Virus record (IMG/VR): IMGVR_UViG_3300047318_000414
Span: 1 to 42,868 of that record
DNA from: a virus
Length of the DNA stretch: 42,868 bases
Strand: one strand, 5' to 3'
This document shows, piece after piece, positions 7,384-42,210 of this stretch. The notes beneath the pieces are model-generated. The model ran no database searches, was not told where the DNA came from, and was given only the letters and a program-made list of their open reading frames with translations. The position numbers and the translations under genes were made by a program. Each line of letters opens with the position of its first letter. The stretch's first letter is position 1.

Positions 7384-7788
7384 CTACTCGGCGGCTGTAG
7401 GGCTGCGCCACTCGGGGTGATCCTTCTTCCACTGCCGATGAGCCTTGTTGCCGAGCACACGGCTCTCGGCAGTGGCCTGCACCAGGAACCGGCCCCAGCC
7501 CGGCGTACCGTGCAGGTTGCGCAGCGGCCCGTCCTCGCGGAGCGCTCGCCGCTCCTCGGCCGCAGCCTCTTCGCGCGAGGAGTACCAGGTGACTTCGAAC
7601 CCTGCGACCTCCGGCCACCACTCATGCTGATCAGCGTGCGACGCCCAACGCATCAACGGGTTTCGGCCGATGCCGACGTAGACCAGCTCCCCCGCTGCGT
7701 TGCTGAGCCGGTACACCGCCGTCTCCCCGGAGTGCTTGTCACCGACCCCCACCTGTGGCATCCGTCCCCGAACCGGCGGCTGTGTCAT
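7384..7788 (-). CDS. GIY-YIG family nuclease-like protein
   Basis: Up to 134 aa. Residues 24-95 match the GIY-YIG nuclease fold: VYRL (25-28) for GIY, VYVGIG (36-41) for YIG, Arg47 and His51 on the following helix, WWPEV, and a Glu-rich helix (EEAAAEERRA) that supplies the metal-binding Glu. GIY-YIG enzymes cut DNA as homing endonucleases, repair nucleases or phage defence-type enzymes. No intron, intein or extra DNA-binding domain is visible. The first ATG overlaps the upstream HTH gene by 50 bases, and ATG 7761 with a GGGGACGG site before it is another possible start. Co-transcribed with the HTH gene. Confidence 0.7.
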   Translation of the reverse strand: MTQPPVRGRMPQVGVGDKHSGETAVYRLSNAAGELVYVGIGRNPLMRWASHADQHEWWPEVAGFEVTWYSSREEAAAEERRALREDGPLRNLHGTPGWGRFLVQATAESRVLGNKAHRQWKKDHPEWRSPTAAE

Positions 7789-8077
7789 CTGCTGGCCCCT
7801 CTCTGCGCTGCTGGATGTCTGTCCGCTGCCCCTGCCGTGACGTCCGCGACCGGAAGTACGGCTCGATCACCCGCCAGTCGAACAGGCGGATCCGCCCCAC
7901 CTTCACCGCCTTCTCCAGCGGCACCGGCCACGCCGGGTCTTCCTCGGCGAGCTGACGGCACCGCTGCGCACTGACCTTCTTCAGGCCGGCGGCCTCCAGG
8001 CGCGCGGGCATGTCCGCGAACGAGATCAAGTCCGGGCCTCCCGTCTCGTCGACTTCCTCCTGCGGGGAGTCGGGCAT
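7739..8077 (-). CDS. Small helix-turn-helix regulator or excisionase-like protein
   Basis: A 112-aa protein. About residues 17-75 look like a MerR/excisionase-type winged HTH: FADMPARLEAAGLKKVSAQRCRQLAEEDPAWP followed by VGRIRLFDWRVIEPYF. The C-terminal tail is Gln/Gly/Thr-rich and unstructured. It lies next to a 26-bp palindrome that overlaps promoters in both directions, so it may be an autoregulator also controlling the Spd-like operon. It could instead be the recombination directionality factor, though it is far from the integrase. A -10-like GAGGAT lies 6 bases before the ATG, suggesting a leaderless transcript. Confidence 0.6.
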   Translation of the reverse strand: MPDSPQEEVDETGGPDLISFADMPARLEAAGLKKVSAQRCRQLAEEDPAWPVPLEKAVKVGRIRLFDWRVIEPYFRSRTSRQGQRTDIQQRREGPADDTAAGSGTDATGGGR

Positions 8078-8083
8078 GACTCC

Positions 8084-8127
8084 ATCCTCTCAACTTCCTT
8101 GTTTTAAAACAAGGAAGTAGCTACGCT
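8084..8127. promoter_or_regulatory. Divergent promoter pair over the palindrome
   Basis: Rightward: TTGTTT (8099-8104), 17 bases, TACGCT (8122-8127). Leftward, from the symmetric half: TTGTTT, 17 bases, GAGGAT (8089-8084). Both fit the primary sigma consensus and spacing. The leftward start would fall at or next to the ATG at 8077. The operator covers both -35 boxes, so one repressor could silence both directions. Confidence 0.6.
8093..8118. promoter_or_regulatory. 26-bp perfect palindromic operator
   Basis: Two 13-base arms, ACTTCCTTGTTTT and its exact reverse complement, meet without a spacer at 8105/8106. The TTTTAAAA centre is striking in 70% GC DNA. It lies between the divergent genes at 8077 (minus) and 8213 (plus) and overlaps the -35 regions of both predicted promoters. 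It is probably the binding site of a dimeric repressor, most simply the adjacent HTH protein. Confidence 0.85.
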
Positions 8128-8212: not shown

Positions 8213-8521
8213 ATGCCCGAGCTTAGCCAGACCTCCCAGCCGGACGAAGCCCTGCGCCAGGTCCGCACCGACGAGACCACTCGCGCGGGACTCCTCTGGA
8301 TCGCCGAACGCCTCACCGCCCAACGCCCCCGCCACGAGATGCTTCCCGCCGCCCGGCTTGCCCTCGCCCTCCGCGTCGGCCTCGACCGCCACGGCTACAC
8401 CGACCAGGCCCACACCCTGGAACGCGACCTGCTGCTCCGCATGCCGACCATCGAGCAGGCGATCACCCGCGGCGAGTACGCGCTGATCCTCCGCCGCGCC
8501 GCCGGGAAGGTCGACGCCTGA
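8213..8521 (+). CDS. Hypothetical protein, first gene of the Spd-like operon
   Basis: A 102-aa soluble, mostly helical protein rich in Leu/Arg (for example AARLALALRVGLDRHG). No motif recognised. The ribosome site (CAGGAGAAGG) is strong. The last base of its stop is the first base of the next ATG (TGATG), so it is coupled to the SpdB-like gene. It may be a regulator or cytosolic partner of the membrane proteins that follow. Confidence 0.65.
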   Translation: MPELSQTSQPDEALRQVRTDETTRAGLLWIAERLTAQRPRHEMLPAARLALALRVGLDRHGYTDQAHTLERDLLLRMPTIEQAITRGEYALILRRAAGKVDA

Positions 8522-9369
8522 TGCGCACCCGCACCATCGTCCAGACCCGCAAGGTCCCCCACACCATCGACGGCAAGACCGTCATGGTCGACGACCAGCA
8601 CACCGTGCACGTTCCCGTGCCCCCGCGCGACTGGGACCACACCGTCCGCAACGCCGTCACCGGCGCCGCCGCAGGCATCGGCCTCGCCTCCATCGCCTGG
8701 TCCACCGCCAGCATCGGCGGCCTCCTCGACCGCGTCGTCATCTCCCCCGCCGCCTACGCCGCGGCCGGAGTCTTCGACCTCGTGTGGATCTCCTGCATGG
8801 CCCTGGAGTGGCTCGCCCGACACGACCCCGCCCGCGCCGAACTCCCCCGGCGCGCCGGATGGGCCGCGCTCGCCTTCGCCATGGCCGCCGTCGGCGTCGA
8901 CGGCTACGTCGAGGGGCAGCTCGTCATCGGCATCGTCGGCGCCACCGTCTCCGGCCTCGCCAAGGGCCTGTGGACCGTCGTCCTCGCCCACCACGCCCAC
9001 CCCCTCGACCCGCGCACCCAGCAGTGGGTGGACGCCCAGCGCGCCGAGGCCGGCGTGCGCCTCGCGATGATCCCGATCCGCCGCGAACTCACCCGCGCCG
9101 ACGGGCTCGTCGCCGCCGAGGAGGCCGCGATCCGGACCAGTCCGGACGCATATCCAGACAGTCCGGACGACTCCGAGGACGACCAGGACGCCGAAGTCCT
9201 GCCGCTCCCTCCCGGCGCCGTGACCGCGAAGGACGCCGTCCGGACAGCCTGGGAGGCCGGATTCCGCGACGAGGACGCGATCCGCCGTACGGCCAGCACC
9301 GCGCTCGGCCGGCCGCTGTCTCCCGACACCGTCGCCCGCTACGTTCGCGCCCTCAAGGTCGTTGCCTGA
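8521..9369 (+). CDS. SpdB-like membrane protein (plasmid-spread / transfer family)
   Basis: A 282-aa protein. The N-terminal VQTRKVPHTIDGKT and VPVPPRDWDH stretches, the WSTASIGGLL segment, CMALEWLARHDP, LPRRAG and SGLAKGLWT are hallmarks, as I recall them, of the SpdB family of Streptomyces conjugative plasmids and integrative elements such as pSAM2. Those proteins act in spreading of the element through septa of the recipient mycelium. About four hydrophobic segments lie between residues 40 and 155, then a cytoplasmic part with an Asp-rich linker (about 200-230) and a C-terminal winged-helix-like segment (AKDAVRTAWEAGF). Presence in a tailed phage is unusual, and no TraB/FtsK pump is encoded. 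Confidence 0.7.
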   Translation: MRTRTIVQTRKVPHTIDGKTVMVDDQHTVHVPVPPRDWDHTVRNAVTGAAAGIGLASIAWSTASIGGLLDRVVISPAAYAAAGVFDLVWISCMALEWLARHDPARAELPRRAGWAALAFAMAAVGVDGYVEGQLVIGIVGATVSGLAKGLWTVVLAHHAHPLDPRTQQWVDAQRAEAGVRLAMIPIRRELTRADGLVAAEEAAIRTSPDAYPDSPDDSEDDQDAEVLPLPPGAVTAKDAVRTAWEAGFRDEDAIRRTASTALGRPLSPDTVARYVRALKVVA

Positions 9370-9929
9370 TGACCGACCTGCCGATCGTCCCGACCCGGAT
9401 CATCCCCGCGGGCGCGCCGCTCCCCGAGCGGCCGCCCGGCCCCGGCGACATCCCTCCGTGGCGCGCCCCGGCCGCGCCGCCCGCTCCTCCGGCCCCGCCG
9501 ATCCCCCCGATGGTGATGCCCTGGCCCGACCCGCCGGCCCCCGGCCCGATCGAAGTACACGTCACCTTCCTCCCCGTCGAGGAGCCCCCGGAGCCGTCCC
9601 GGGGGGAGCGGCTGTGGGCGTGGATCACGAGCATCGCCAAGCCCTGGAAGATCGTCGCCGCGCTGCTCGGCGCGCTTCTCCCTATCCCCGGCATCGGCTA
9701 CAGCCTCGCCGGAGTCTGGGCCTACTGCGTCAGCGACGCCAGGACCACCTTCGGCATTCCGTACGGGTACGGACTCGCGCTCGTACCCCTGCTGCTGTCC
9801 GCCCGCGCGCTCGCCCGCACCCGCGCGCTGCGCTGGCTCGTCGCCACCGTCATCGGCCTCACCGGCCTCGTCTTCGGCGCCGTCGACTGGTTCGACATCG
9901 TCACCATCACCACCGGAGTCACCCGATGA
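9369..9929 (+). CDS. Membrane protein with proline-rich N-terminus
   Basis: A 186-aa protein. Residues 1-80 are extremely Pro/Ala-rich and likely disordered in the cytoplasm. Residues 90-186 contain about three hydrophobic helices (IVAALLGALLPIPGIGYSL, LALVPLLLSARAL, WLVATVIGLTGLVFGAV). The ATG overlaps the SpdB-like stop. No named family, but position and topology suit an accessory Spd protein. Confidence 0.65.
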   Translation: MTDLPIVPTRIIPAGAPLPERPPGPGDIPPWRAPAAPPAPPAPPIPPMVMPWPDPPAPGPIEVHVTFLPVEEPPEPSRGERLWAWITSIAKPWKIVAALLGALLPIPGIGYSLAGVWAYCVSDARTTFGIPYGYGLALVPLLLSARALARTRALRWLVATVIGLTGLVFGAVDWFDIVTITTGVTR

Positions 9930-10423
9930 TCCTGTCCATGGCCGGCGTCGCCCTCGCCCTCGTCGTCGCCTGGGCCAACCTGAGGCCTTGGTGGAAGGGC
10001 GGCCGCGACCCCAAAGCCCTCATCCCGTACGGCACGGCGCTGCTTCTCGGCCTGCTCGCCACCATGTGTATCGGCGGCCTCCTCGGCTGGGGAGCGGCAG
10101 GCATCGCCGGCCTCATCACCAGCGGCGGCAACAAGGTCGTCTCGGCGGCCGCTGGCACAGGCGCCGCCCCGGTGGCCACCTCCCGCCTGGGCGCGCTCAC
10201 CCCTGCCGGCGGCGTGGTCGTTACGGCCTACTTCATCGGCGTCTACCTGATGTGGAAGGGCGCGGCCAAGCTCGACAAGCGCCGCATGGCCGGCGGCCTC
10301 CTCGCCGGCGCCGTCCTCGGCTTCCTCCCCGGCATCGTCCAACTCATGGGCTGGCTACCCAACACCGTCAACGACGCCGGCGCGTACGTGCAGGCCTTCG
10401 TCGAGGGTCGGGTGAGCGTGTGA
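9926..10423 (+). CDS. Multi-pass membrane protein
   Basis: A 165-aa protein with hydrophobic segments near the N-terminus (SMAGVALALVVAWANL), at about 33-60, 90-115 and 125-145, predicting four membrane helices with a Gly/Ala-rich exterior loop. Overlaps both neighbours by 4 bases. Third member of the coupled Spd-like membrane gene cluster. Function inferred from context only. Confidence 0.65.
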   Translation: MILSMAGVALALVVAWANLRPWWKGGRDPKALIPYGTALLLGLLATMCIGGLLGWGAAGIAGLITSGGNKVVSAAAGTGAAPVATSRLGALTPAGGVVVTAYFIGVYLMWKGAAKLDKRRMAGGLLAGAVLGFLPGIVQLMGWLPNTVNDAGAYVQAFVEGRVSV

Positions 10424-11043
10424 ACCGGCGCCTCGCCGCAGCAGTCGACACCGCTGCCCGGCACAGCATCGCCCGCCGCCTCGCCATCGGCGGCCAGCTC
10501 GTCTACCGCCGCCGCGCCGACGCGCTCACCGCCTGGGTCGCCGCCGGCCGCCGCGACGACCTCACCGGGTGGCGCGCCGCCCTCGGCCCGGCCGTCCGGC
10601 TCGTCATCCTCGCCGCAGCCGCGGCCCTCGCCTACCGCATCGTCCGCGCCGTGCCGTGGCTGATGTGGGTGCTCCTTGCGGGTGGCACCTGGACCGCGTG
10701 GCGGGCCTCCGCCGACCTCCCCGATGAGGCCGCCGAGGAGCAGCCCGTGGACGCCCCCGCCGGGCCCGATCTGGACGCCGTTCTCACCCTGCTTCACACC
10801 GTCCTCGGCGGCCGCGACCGGGTGCACCTCTCCACCGTCCTCGCCCACCTCCAGAAGGAGGGACAGGCGGCCGGCTGGACGGTGGCCGATCTGCGCGCCC
10901 GTCTGGAGGCGCTCGGGGTGCCCGTCGCACTGAAGGTGAAGGTGGCCGGTGTGCCCACCCGCGGGGTCCTCCTGGCCGACCTCCAGGCCCACTTCCCCGA
11001 CTGGGAGATGCCGCCGTCTCCCGCGCAGGTAGATGCGGCCTGA
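10420..11043 (+). CDS. Membrane protein with cytoplasmic winged-helix-like domain
   Basis: A 207-aa protein from GTG 10420. A basic N-terminal region (1-50) precedes two hydrophobic helices (about 55-85) and an acidic hinge (DLPDEAAEEQPVD). Residues 115-200 form a soluble alpha/beta domain (HLSTVLAHLQKEG, then a VADLRARLEALGVP helix and a KVKVAGVPTRGVLL beta hairpin) that looks like a winged helix. Such a layout would place a DNA-contacting domain at the membrane. It is the last large gene of the Spd-like operon. Confidence 0.6.
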   Translation: MNRRLAAAVDTAARHSIARRLAIGGQLVYRRRADALTAWVAAGRRDDLTGWRAALGPAVRLVILAAAAALAYRIVRAVPWLMWVLLAGGTWTAWRASADLPDEAAEEQPVDAPAGPDLDAVLTLLHTVLGGRDRVHLSTVLAHLQKEGQAAGWTVADLRARLEALGVPVALKVKVAGVPTRGVLLADLQAHFPDWEMPPSPAQVDAA

Positions 11044-11140
11044 CCTGCGGGTCTCCCACCGCGTCTACCCCGATCTCCCGCACGTCTCCCGGCGGATCTC
11101 CCGCCGCCACCACGCCAAGACCCCCGCGAGGAGCGCCTGA
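11033..11140 (+). CDS. Possible arginine-rich microprotein
   Basis: A 35-aa open frame, Arg/His-rich, starting inside the end of the previous gene and followed by a TGATG junction with the next tiny frame. The only support is the chain of overlaps, so it may be spurious. Confidence 0.25.
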   Translation: MRPDLRVSHRVYPDLPHVSRRISRRHHAKTPARSA

Positions 11141-11193
11141 TGGAGTACTGCCCCGACTGCGGCTGGTGGGCCAAGCCCCACTGCGGCCACTGA
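11140..11193 (+). CDS. Possible 17-residue Cys microprotein
   Basis: A 17-codon frame, MEYCPDCGWWAKPHCGH, with a CPDC knuckle and a C-terminal CGH. It is preceded by GCGAGGAGC at ribosome-site distance and a TGATG overlap. A comparable 21-residue CPEC microprotein lies at 38572. The Cys pairs suggest one metal ion. Very short, so only tentative. Confidence 0.35.
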   Translation: MEYCPDCGWWAKPHCGH

Positions 11194-29196: not shown

Positions 29197-30021
29197 ATGG
29201 CGATCGTCCCGCGCTCCCAGTGGGGCGCCCCCGCGACCAGCCCGGCCGCGTTCATCGGCTCCACCCGCGGCGTGAAGGTCCACTACCTCGGCACGCCCTA
29301 CTCCTCCCGCCCGCACTCCGATTGCGCCGCGTACGTCCGCCAGATCCGCGCCTCGCACCTCGCGAACCGCAAGGAGAACTACGTAGACGTCGCGTACAAC
29401 TTCCTCGTCTGCGAGCACGGCGACGCCTTCGAAGGACGCGGCGTTCATCGGCGCACCGGCGCCAACGGCAACCAGGAGCTGAACCACCAGGACTACGCGG
29501 TGTGCGCGCTCCTCGGCTCGTCCGGCCTGACGAAGCCGACCGACGCCATGCTCGGCGGGATCCGGGACGCGATCGAGGAGCTCCGCGAGCACGGCGGCGC
29601 CGGGTCCTGGATCGGCGGCCACCGCGACGGCTACGCCACGGACTGCCCGGGTGACGCCCTGTACGACTGGGTGAAGCGCGGTGCTCCTCGCCCGGGCCCG
29701 GCGCCGAAGCCGCCGGCGGCCGGCGGGGCGCCGCGGCCCGTGGTGGACCTGTCCAAGCTCGTGGCGGCGGCCAAGAGCGACCCACCGAAGAAGGGCACCC
29801 CGGTCTCGTACTACGGCGTGAAGACGGTCGAGGCGGCTCTCGTCGCCGAGGGCCTGCTCGCGCGGGATGTCGCCGACGGGCACTTCGGTACGGCCACGGT
29901 CGCGGCCTACGCGGCGTGGCAGCGCCGGTGCGGCTACAAGGGTGCGGGCGCCGACGGCGTCCCGGGCGCCGAGTCCCTCCGCAAGCTGGCCGCCAAGCGC
30001 GGCTTCACCATCACCCCCTGA
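29197..30021 (+). CDS. Endolysin: N-acetylmuramoyl-L-alanine amidase with peptidoglycan-binding domain
   Basis: A 274-aa enzyme. Residues 1-165 form an amidase_2/PGRP domain: RSQWGAP start, zinc ligand His29 in KVHYLG, YNFLVCEHG, and the GGHRDGYATDCPGD block (about 140-153) supplying the second His and the Cys ligand. A Pro-rich linker (about 165-185) leads to a C-terminal peptidoglycan-binding domain (GVKTVEAALVAEGLL, then DGHFGTATVAAYAAWQ). It cuts the bond between MurNAc and the stem peptide. No signal peptide, so export depends on the holin downstream. GGAGGTCGCC precedes the ATG. Confidence 0.92.
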   Translation: MAIVPRSQWGAPATSPAAFIGSTRGVKVHYLGTPYSSRPHSDCAAYVRQIRASHLANRKENYVDVAYNFLVCEHGDAFEGRGVHRRTGANGNQELNHQDYAVCALLGSSGLTKPTDAMLGGIRDAIEELREHGGAGSWIGGHRDGYATDCPGDALYDWVKRGAPRPGPAPKPPAAGGAPRPVVDLSKLVAAAKSDPPKKGTPVSYYGVKTVEAALVAEGLLARDVADGHFGTATVAAYAAWQRRCGYKGAGADGVPGAESLRKLAAKRGFTITP

Positions 30022-30035
30022 CCTAGGAGTTCTCC

Positions 30036-30263
30036 ATGTCTCGTCTCGTCCTCGACACCGTCGAGCGCGTCGTCGGTACGTACGCTGTGGCGTTCCTCGG
30101 CCTGCTGCTCGCCGACGGCGTCGACCTCACGGACGTCGGCTCGCTGCGGGCGGCGGCGATCGCCGCGATCCCGGCCGGCCTGTCCGTGCTGAAGGCCGCG
30201 GTGGGCACGCTGATCGGCGACAAGACCACGGTCGGCTGGATCTCGCGGCCCCCGCGCGTCTGA
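30036..30263 (+). CDS. Holin
   Basis: A 75-aa protein with two hydrophobic segments (about 13-28 TYAVAFLGLLLADGV and 36-60 LRAAAIAAIPAGLSVLKAAVGTL) and a short basic tail, a size and layout typical of r1t-type actinophage holins. Directly after the endolysin with TAGGAGTT before the ATG. It would form the timed lesion in the cytoplasmic membrane. Confidence 0.8.
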   Translation: MSRLVLDTVERVVGTYAVAFLGLLLADGVDLTDVGSLRAAAIAAIPAGLSVLKAAVGTLIGDKTTVGWISRPPRV

Positions 30264-39754: not shown

Positions 39755-40530
39755 CCGAGATCGCCACCCGAGACCAGGCCCTGCCCGCCGAACAGCAGCC
39801 CGCCGCCCCCATCCCGACCCCGGGGACCACCGCGCTCATGGCCTGGGCCCAGGAGGCGGACCTCGCCTACCAGATGGCCCAGAAGCTCGCCGCCACCTCG
39901 TTCGTCCCCCAGACCCTTCGGGGCAAGCCCGGCGACATCGCCGCCGCGATCCTCGCCGGCGCCGAGCTCGGGCTGAAGCCGATGGCCACCCTCAAGTCCA
40001 TCGACATCATCCAGGGCACCCCGGCCCTGCGGGCGCACGCCATGCGTGCCGTCGTCCAGCAGCAGGGCCACGAGGTCGAGCTCGTCGAGAGCTCCCCCCG
40101 ACACTGCGTGATGCGCGGCCGGCGTAAGGGCTCCGAGACGTGGCAGCAGGTCCGTTGGGACCTGGAGCGAGCTGCGCTGATGAAGCTCACCGAGAAGGGC
40201 GAGTGGAAGAAGCAGCCCCAGAACATGCTCGTGGCCCGGGCCACCGGCGAGCTGTGCCGCCTGATTGCTTCCGACGCGCTGCACGGCATGGCGTACGTCT
40301 CCGAGGAGCTGGAGGGCACGGCCCACGCCGAGGTGGTCCCGCAGCGGGCGCCGTTGAGCATCGCCGCGATCACCGCCCCGACGACCATGCCGGTCGCCCC
40401 CGCCCCGGCGGACGCCGAGTACACCGTCACCCGCGACGACGCCGAGGCGGGCGTGTGGGACCAGGACGCCGCCGACGACTCCGTCGACTGGCCCGAGACC
40501 GCGCAGCCCGGCGCCGGAGAGGTGGCGTGA
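39751..40530 (+). CDS. RecT-family single-strand annealing protein
   Basis: A 259-aa protein. The core (about 35-195) has the RecT pattern: FVPQTLRGKPGDIAAAILAGAELGLKPMATLKSI (in part), HAMRAVVQQQGHEVEL, NMLVARATGELCRLIASDALHG. The C-terminal 60 residues are acidic and disordered. It coats and anneals single strands made by the exonuclease. GTG start coupled to that gene; its stop overlaps the MRLPF gene (TGATG), the same junction that opens the window. Confidence 0.9.
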   Translation: MTEIATRDQALPAEQQPAAPIPTPGTTALMAWAQEADLAYQMAQKLAATSFVPQTLRGKPGDIAAAILAGAELGLKPMATLKSIDIIQGTPALRAHAMRAVVQQQGHEVELVESSPRHCVMRGRRKGSETWQQVRWDLERAALMKLTEKGEWKKQPQNMLVARATGELCRLIASDALHGMAYVSEELEGTAHAEVVPQRAPLSIAAITAPTTMPVAPAPADAEYTVTRDDAEAGVWDQDAADDSVDWPETAQPGAGEVA

Positions 40531-41075
40531 TGCGACTCCCCTTCGTCTCCCGCCGCTACGCCCACGGCGCCATCGCCGTCGCCACGGCCGGACTCCGCGC
40601 CGACCTCGAAGCCACCCAGGCCGAACTCGCGGACCTGCGCGCCGAGGCGGCGAAGCGCGAACAGCAGGCTGCCGACGAGCAGCCGCCGGCCGCCGTCGAG
40701 CACACCGAGCTGTGGTCCCTCATCGACTGGAGCCTGTGGGGCTCCGGCATGGGCGACACCTTCCGCGAGCAGCTCGCCGACCAGTTCATCGCCGCCATCA
40801 CGCCCGAGCAGCACGCGCAGGCCCTCGAACTCATCCGGTGGTGGACCGAGGACTGCGGCCGCGAGCCCCTCGGCCGCCGCCGCTACGAGGACCAGCAGCG
40901 CCGCCTGCACCGGGCGCTCCGGGCCTGTGCCCGGTACCGCGCGCAGCTCGCCATCGAGAAGCGCGTCGTCCGCAGACTCGGCACCCAGCTCCTCGACGCC
41001 CCCGGCTACCAGGGCAAGTCGCTCTTCCCCGCCGCCCGCACCCTGCTCGACCTCGACCAGGAGGACCCGAAGTGA
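40530..41075 (+). CDS. MRLPF-type coiled-coil protein, arm B
   Basis: A 181-aa protein. The ends match the 132-aa arm A protein (MRLPF-SRR start; QLLDA, GYQG, PAAR end), but the middle contains an additional region with WSLIDWSLWGSGMGD and ALELIRWWTEDCG. N-terminal coiled coil about 25-55. ATG overlaps the RecT stop. Function unknown; mosaic structure points to recombination within the gene. Confidence 0.7.
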   Translation: MRLPFVSRRYAHGAIAVATAGLRADLEATQAELADLRAEAAKREQQAADEQPPAAVEHTELWSLIDWSLWGSGMGDTFREQLADQFIAAITPEQHAQALELIRWWTEDCGREPLGRRRYEDQQRRLHRALRACARYRAQLAIEKRVVRRLGTQLLDAPGYQGKSLFPAARTLLDLDQEDPK

Positions 41076-41971
41076 CCACCTCCACCATGACCCCCGCGGC
41101 CGGGATGACCCGCCTCCCGGCCACGGGCACCAAGCCCCTCCCCCCGCACGGCACCCTCTCGCGCGTCAAGGGCTACGGCTGCAAGTGCGATGCCTGCCGC
41201 AAGGCCAGCCGCGACTACACGAACACCCGTGTCCGGCTCATGGCCTACGGCCGCTGGCAGCCCTACACCGACGCCGAGCCCGTCCGCGCGCACATCCGCA
41301 TGCTGTCCAGCTTCGGCATCGGCGTCCAGCGGACCCGCGTCGCCGCCGGCATGTCGAACGGCAGCCTGTCCCGCCTGCTGTACGGGCGGGGCGGGCAGCG
41401 CGGGATGTCGCGCCGGATCCGTACCGAGACCGCCGATCGCATTCTCGCCATCCGGCCGTCGCTGGACCTGGTTGCCCCGTCTGCCCTCGTCGACAGCACC
41501 GGCACCCGGCGCCGACTGCAGGGCCTCGTCGCCGTCGGATGGCCGCAGATCGAACTGGCCCGCCGCACCGGCATCGACAAGATGACGATCAACGACCAGC
41601 TGCACCAGACGTCCACCACGGCGTACGGCTCGACCGCACGCACCATCCGCGACATGTACGAGCAGTTGTGGAACGTCGACCCGTGCACGCAGGGTGTCGG
41701 CCGCCGGTGGGCGAAGGAAGCCCGCGCGCTCGCCTCGGCCAACGGCTGGGTGCCGCCGGCCGCGTGGGACGACGACTACATCGACAGCCCCGCGGCCACG
41801 CCGGACGTGGGCGAGGAGGTCGCCCGGTACGTGGCGATCACCGAGGACGCGACGTGGCTCGAACAGACCCAGGGCTACACCCGGGCGCAGGCCGCCAACC
41901 GGCTCGGCATCACCCGCGACCACCTGGAGCGTGCCCTGTCGTACGCCCGGCAGAAGGGGGTGGCCGCATGA
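41072..41971 (+). CDS. HTH protein with N-terminal Cys module, arm B only
   Basis: A 299-aa protein from GTG 41072. The N-terminal HGTLSRVKGYGCKCDACRKA (about 27-46) resembles the CGT/C modules at the end of the arm A WhiB. Then come HTH-like units: TRVAAGMSNGSLSRLLYGRG near 90, WPQIELARRTGIDKMTINDQ near 160 (resolvase/sigma-like) and a C-terminal YTRAQAANRLGITRDHLERA near 270. Probably a DNA-binding regulator. Absent from arm A. Confidence 0.65.
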   Translation: MTTSTMTPAAGMTRLPATGTKPLPPHGTLSRVKGYGCKCDACRKASRDYTNTRVRLMAYGRWQPYTDAEPVRAHIRMLSSFGIGVQRTRVAAGMSNGSLSRLLYGRGGQRGMSRRIRTETADRILAIRPSLDLVAPSALVDSTGTRRRLQGLVAVGWPQIELARRTGIDKMTINDQLHQTSTTAYGSTARTIRDMYEQLWNVDPCTQGVGRRWAKEARALASANGWVPPAAWDDDYIDSPAATPDVGEEVARYVAITEDATWLEQTQGYTRAQAANRLGITRDHLERALSYARQKGVAA

Positions 41972-42210
41972 CTCGCGCCGTCACTCCGCCGGCCTTCGTC
42001 GAGGAAGCGGTCTGCGGACAGGCCGACCCGGAGGCGTTCTTCCCTGAGCGCGGCCAGTCCGCCAAGGACGCCAAGCAGGTCTGCCTCGCCTGTCCTGTCC
42101 GCGTCGACTGCCTGACCTGGGCCCTCGACAACGCCGAGCACCACGGCGTCTGGGGCGGCCTCACCGAGAAGGAACGCCTCCGCCTCCGACGCCGACGCAC
42201 CGCCGCCTGA
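41968..42210 (+). CDS. WhiB-family regulator, arm B
   Basis: An 80-aa protein: ligand cysteines C16, C39, C42, C48 and GVWGG at 60-64, then a basic tail. The compact size is typical of WhiB proteins, unlike the 220-aa arm A version. ATG overlaps the upstream stop. It probably binds a [4Fe-4S] cluster and modulates sigma-factor-dependent transcription in the early operon. Confidence 0.92.
   Translation: MTRAVTPPAFVEEAVCGQADPEAFFPERGQSAKDAKQVCLACPVRVDCLTWALDNAEHHGVWGGLTEKERLRLRRRRTAA

Follow-up and report, generated by a model that had tools for sequence, protein, structure and literature searches.

What does a membrane operon that resembles the spread genes of Streptomyces plasmids do in a tailed phage? 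The virus record IMGVR_UViG_3300047318_000414, analysed here over its whole length of 42,868 bases (the window), holds the gene set of a temperate tailed phage, with genes for a terminase large subunit (13916), portal (15199), major head protein (18856), tape measure (23571), endolysin (29197), holin (30036), a serine integrase on the minus strand (33792) and a repressor (35726). At 8213-11043 it contains in addition five translationally coupled genes, which overlap in order by 1, 1, 4 and 4 nt. The initial annotation likened the product of 8521-9369 to SpdB and had three coupled membrane proteins follow it; genes and coordinates proved correct. SpdB2 of pSVH1 is an oligomeric, DNA-binding membrane protein that interacts with TraB (PMC4170104), and in SLP2 the Spd functions assist both movement within the mycelium and stability (PMC4170104, PMC13245405).

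The first gene of the operon, orf1 (8213-8521, plus strand), encodes a conserved non-membrane protein of 102 aa with about 30 homologues and a conserved position. On the same strand follow the gene of the SpdB-like membrane protein (8521-9369; 282 aa), memB (9369-9929; 186 aa, a proline-rich N-terminus and hydrophobic helices), memC (9926-10423; 165 aa, four predicted membrane helices) and memD (10420-11043; 207 aa). Homologues of memB occur in the phages VWB and Kromp and on one plasmid, those of memC comprise 18 ORFs from phages and plasmids, and memD is 60% identical to its VWB counterpart over 197 aa. Divergently oriented, on the minus strand at 7739-8077, lies the gene of a small putative DNA-binding regulator of 112 aa ('rep'). 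This protein has no match in the Pfam, NCBIfam and PHROGs libraries; a gene of this kind precedes many of the cassette copies, and a profile search places its relatives at the same site in about 15 related loci, VWB included. Between the divergent genes a perfect palindrome of 26 bp, ACTTCCTTGTTTTAAAACAAGGAAGT (8093-8118), is a likely operator. It is one of only three inverted repeats in the window with perfect arms of at least 11 bp and loops of at most 6 bp, and two related loci (L022 and L027) carry perfect palindromes at the equivalent position. Of the promoter and operator that had been postulated for this set, the operator has thus found a good candidate, while a promoter and terminator scan detected no sigma-70-type promoter upstream of the cassette, and no terminator either.

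Several features of the surroundings are recorded here for completeness. Beside the divergent regulator, on the minus strand at 7384-7761, a small protein is encoded whose N-terminus looks, by eye, like a GIY-YIG nuclease; related genes are found near the cassette in four other loci (L019, L039, L058 and L064). Directly 3' of the cassette (11140-11193) there is a possible cysteine-rich mini-protein of 17 residues (MEYCPDCGWWAKPHCGH). The ends of the record carry paralogous gene pairs (8-1068 and 40527-42210): the WhiB-like proteins of 406-1068 and 41968-42210 are 49% identical over 68 aa, and the products of their neighbours, 8-409 and 40527-41075, are 30% identical. A holin or lysis cassette at 8213-11043, which had been named as the ordinary alternative, is ruled out, as endolysin and holin of this phage are encoded elsewhere, at 29197-30260, and the SpdB-like protein, memB, memC and memD match only PHROGs families of unknown function.

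The predicted structures point to DNA handling at the membrane. In the AlphaFold model of the SpdB-like protein (mean pLDDT 83.8, pTM 0.52) an N-terminal beta-hairpin precedes four core helices (about residues 37-158) and a long helix, and a disordered linker leads to a C-terminal domain of three helices (residues 236-281; 9226-9363, plus strand) that is helix-turn-helix-like and putatively binds DNA. A simple hydropathy cut-off flags just one helix of this protein, so that the evidence for a membrane topology with four helices comes from the model and from homologues. The predicted picture is that of an integral membrane protein whose C-terminal region binds DNA. In profile comparison the C-terminal domain matches that of Kromp gp82 with 97% probability. 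The memD model (mean pLDDT 81.1) combines two hydrophobic helices with a putatively DNA-binding winged helix (10771-10992, plus strand) of the order H-E-H-H-E-E and a pLDDT of about 90. A possible DNA-binding tail had been suspected on one of the three downstream proteins; the models would place it on memD and add a second one on the SpdB-like protein itself. Fold searches of the PDB with both models gave nothing below E 0.001, and the matches of memD to winged helices of known structure are weak (best E 0.2). Comparison by hhalign (about 0.5% or less) gave no support for equating the memD winged helix with the C-terminal domain of TraB. Viral structure models similar to that of the SpdB-like protein are those of phiC31 gp25 and of DUF2637-type membrane proteins from Gordonia phages and uncultured phages; weaker matches come from phages of Mycobacterium and Thermus. 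The protein phiC31 gp25 (L092, 36291-37007), of unknown function although phiC31 is a model phage, is the second-best viral structure match (E 6.6e-4).

Is the protein encoded at 8521-9369 indeed a relative of SpdB? Pfam and NCBIfam contain no family that it matches, and the names COX7a, SAP and DUF7363 that appear for cassette proteins are chance matches below threshold. The silence of the curated libraries is uninformative here, because SpdB of pIJ101 matches no Pfam family either and all Pfam matches of SLP2 SpdB2 fall below the cut-off. Direct BLAST against pIJ101 SpdB yields nothing, and profiles and intermediates are needed. A family profile built from 38 hits matches single SpdB proteins of the pIJ101 type with 84-92% probability, compared with at most 2% for a control set of 38 other multi-helix ORFs, and profile against profile the family reaches 90.8-95% with SpdB. 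In a 12-sequence database BLAST leads from the window protein to an intermediate (L084) with E 8e-16, and from there to SLP2 SpdB2 with E 1e-20 and to pIJ101 SpdB with E 1e-12. When 8609 ORFs were searched with the family profile, the five weakest matches (E 2e-7 to 0.04) were all SpdB proteins. The direct HMM match of pIJ101 SpdB (E 6e-4) is indecisive on its own, because one reversed decoy reached E 0.003. All eight remote loci that were fetched (L084-L091), picked on sequence similarity only, have a TraB-type gene with an FtsK match directly downstream on the same strand. The motif D-x2-W-x(5-9)-E ... G ... K-x2-W is found in 28 of the 38 family members and also in SLP2 SpdB2, pIJ101 SpdB and three near kin of the latter, and among 5253 ORFs no unrelated one has it; it is descriptive only, since the pattern was devised after the sequences had been viewed. 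Within the SpdB-like family P32, W89, E96, R100, K148 and W151 are invariant (29 sequences). A search with the window protein detects the family in 35 of 296 Streptomyces genomes. Profile comparison, BLAST chain, TraB-linked intermediates and the family tree hence bear out the SpdB resemblance that had been proposed for this gene: judged by sequence, the protein is a member of the SpdB superfamily, and the kinship is real though remote.

The likeness to SpdB of pIJ101 and SpdB2 of SLP2 comprises a homologous membrane core with the shared motif, a C-terminal extension of helix-turn-helix type and a place in the membrane operon of a mobile element. The window copy differs from them in its N-terminal beta-hairpin, in its location in a tailed phage, in the missing TraB neighbour and in its coupling to memB, memC and memD, which are absent from the TraB-linked homologues. 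As far as profiles show, its C-terminal domain also differs from those of the pIJ101 and SLP2 proteins, and its identity to the TraB-linked intermediates of the remote group is 27-31% at best.

A translocase of the FtsK/SpoIIIE type, as present in TraB-type conjugation systems, is missing from the window. As the initial annotation had stated, no such ATPase is found in the whole record, neither by a PF01580 search nor with TraB and coupling-protein queries. Co-location with traB is usual for the SpdB superfamily and is seen for L084-L091 and for L093, in which the spdB-like gene shares 4 nt with the gene of a TraB-like ATPase and the SpdB-like protein is 40% identical to that of the window. 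In the family tree, a quick tree with several weak forks and long branches, the members that stand beside pump-type ATPases (L084-L091, L093, L002, L003, L094 and L095) form the early branches, and the phage and cassette members form a large clade of 45 rows. The ATPases of L003, L094 and L095 match coupling-protein or HerA-type families weakly. In 23 loci, the window included, the SpdB-like gene has a terminase or portal gene at a downstream distance of up to about 9 kb; the tree places one of these (L097) with the early branches. All ATPase-linked loci lack memB, memC and memD. The close relatives are temperate phages and one phage-plasmid, in which the genes often stand just before the terminase and have no ATPase. 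Of 19 records, 12 have a tyrosine-integrase match above cut-off and, with the serine integrase of the window, 13 encode an integrase; this tally, in which several records are fragments and which covers cassette-bearing phages only, is consistent with a temperate habit. Two IMG/VR virus records, G007 (L045, 999-7821) and G011 (L047, 3034-12000), open with an integrative conjugative element beside the prophage and are therefore composite. TraB as a phage gene was rejected for both, as it sits with the primase-polymerase, helicase, excisionase and integrase of the neighbouring element.

We show here, by sequence comparison, two settings of the SpdB superfamily: transfer operons with TraB, on plasmids and integrative elements of Streptomyces, and a phage operon that has no pump. 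The latter is conserved across many temperate Streptomyces phages that make up a large clade, together with orf1, memB, memC and memD and often with its own divergent regulator. No mention of Spd proteins in Streptomyces phages came up in a survey of open-licence papers.

The partners of the SpdB-like gene recur with a different protein in its place. In the phages VWB and Kromp memB, memC and memD occur together, and a DUF2637 protein (PF10935) fills the SpdB slot. VWB gp24, Kromp gp82 and the plasmid proteins in the same slot are above the PF10935 gathering cut-off, whereas the window protein is below it. Kromp gp82 bridges the two types, as its membrane part matches DUF2637 and its C-terminal domain matches that of the window family. 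The plasmid NBC_01454 unnamed4 (L050, NZ_CP109464.1, 10,347 bp) carries a complete DUF2637-memB-memC-memD cassette. Its other sizeable genes are for replication and a GntR regulator only, and it is possibly a spreading plasmid that does without TraB. The linear plasmid pFRL4 (L051) has a GntR//WhiB-DUF2637-memD set about 7-8 kb from its end, and further relatives of memD (hits H40-H51) lie at similar distances from the record ends in about ten more plasmids of 220-455 kb. Like the window, VWB, Kromp and both plasmids show no FtsK match over the cut-off (for NBC_01454 unnamed4, no TraB match either), but on NBC_01454 unnamed4 and pFRL4 the GntR regulator replaces the small divergent one. The SpdB-like family itself is found in the phages SF3 and TurkishDelight (46-49% over the membrane part) and on pSITFR-21c (36% over the membrane part), with orf1 and memD also present in TurkishDelight and pSITFR-21c. 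These copies have longer C-terminal regions and other neighbours than that of the window and are annotated just as hypothetical or membrane proteins. The circular pSITFR-21c (NZ_CP134608.1, 103,521 bp; L004, L111 and L112) encodes a major capsid protein, a minor head protein, an amidase, RecT and an exonuclease as well as ParB. Because of these capsid, phage recombination and ParB genes it is apparently a Streptomyces phage-plasmid.

What the cassette does for the phage can be answered tentatively. Our best guess, to which we give somewhat less than even weight, is that it holds phage DNA at the membrane and aids its distribution among the hyphal compartments. The SpdB-like protein and memD would bind DNA at the membrane via their C-terminal domains, and memB and memC would complete a membrane assembly, perhaps at cross-walls. 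This assembly may hold or pass phage DNA and thereby let the prophage or the replicating genome persist and reach the various compartments of the hypha. Host factors such as FtsK, the TraB of a resident plasmid or diffusion across openings in the septa could supply the driving force. A role in maintenance or spread is favoured by the phage-plasmid and by the plasmids that lack TraB. Against spread speaks the absent pump ATPase, as known Spd proteins act jointly with TraB, and likewise the C-terminal domain, which by profile is another than in the pIJ101 and SLP2 proteins. A window prophage also needs no plasmid-like spread for its inheritance, because the serine integrase integrates it.

Membrane proteins made by a prophage or plasmid might also serve superinfection or entry exclusion, in that they block DNA entry of competing elements. 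The carriers, temperate phages and plasmids with integrases in most of the tallied records (window included), are those of exclusion functions, and the membrane proteins are under separate regulation. However, no PADLOC model of known anti-phage defence matches the cassette, and both the relationship to SpdB and the presence of two tails that putatively bind DNA suggest DNA handling rather than exclusion. To our knowledge, five co-conserved genes are also more than known exclusion proteins need. We regard exclusion as unlikely, though as an explanation to be taken seriously.

Another explanation is that the cassette serves replication or segregation by anchoring the DNA of the phage to the cytoplasmic membrane, unrelated to septa or to movement between compartments. 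Two membrane proteins with predicted tails of DNA-binding type, the location between early genes and terminase, and the presence of the cassette on a phage-plasmid with ParB would all suit a tether. So would the structural cousins in phages of unicellular hosts: because DUF2637-type proteins occur in phages of Gordonia, Mycobacterium and Thermus, a purely septum-specific job cannot cover the whole superfamily. The closest kin in sequence, however, are proteins with spread as their genetic phenotype, and at the sequence level the family was found almost exclusively in Streptomyces, apart from one plasmid of a Frankia relative. A pure tether is in our estimate rather improbable. That the genes are passengers, captured from a conjugative element and functionless for the phage, is very hard to believe: the integrative conjugative elements directly beside the prophages of G007 and G011 would make exchange easy, but a deep phage clade with terminases of many types has preserved the open frames and the order of the genes, and the residues listed above are invariant.

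If distribution of phage DNA within the mycelium is the right reading, phages may have adopted a portion of the machinery by which plasmids spread. A bolder version, which we think doubtful, is that an SpdB or DUF2637 protein forms with memB, memC and memD a self-contained, TraB-independent apparatus that passes DNA between mycelium compartments and serves temperate phages, phage-plasmids and small plasmids alike; phage genomes would then travel inside the hyphal network without lysis. Work on Spd proteins has so far dealt with them solely as aids to plasmid conjugation. A phage clade that has an SpdB relative with its own partners and no pump separates the function of Spd from that of TraB. 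Should the cassette exclude rivals, this would suggest that Spd proteins do something besides transport. Should it move DNA through the mycelium, it would provide a lysis-free route of phage spread in a multicellular bacterium.
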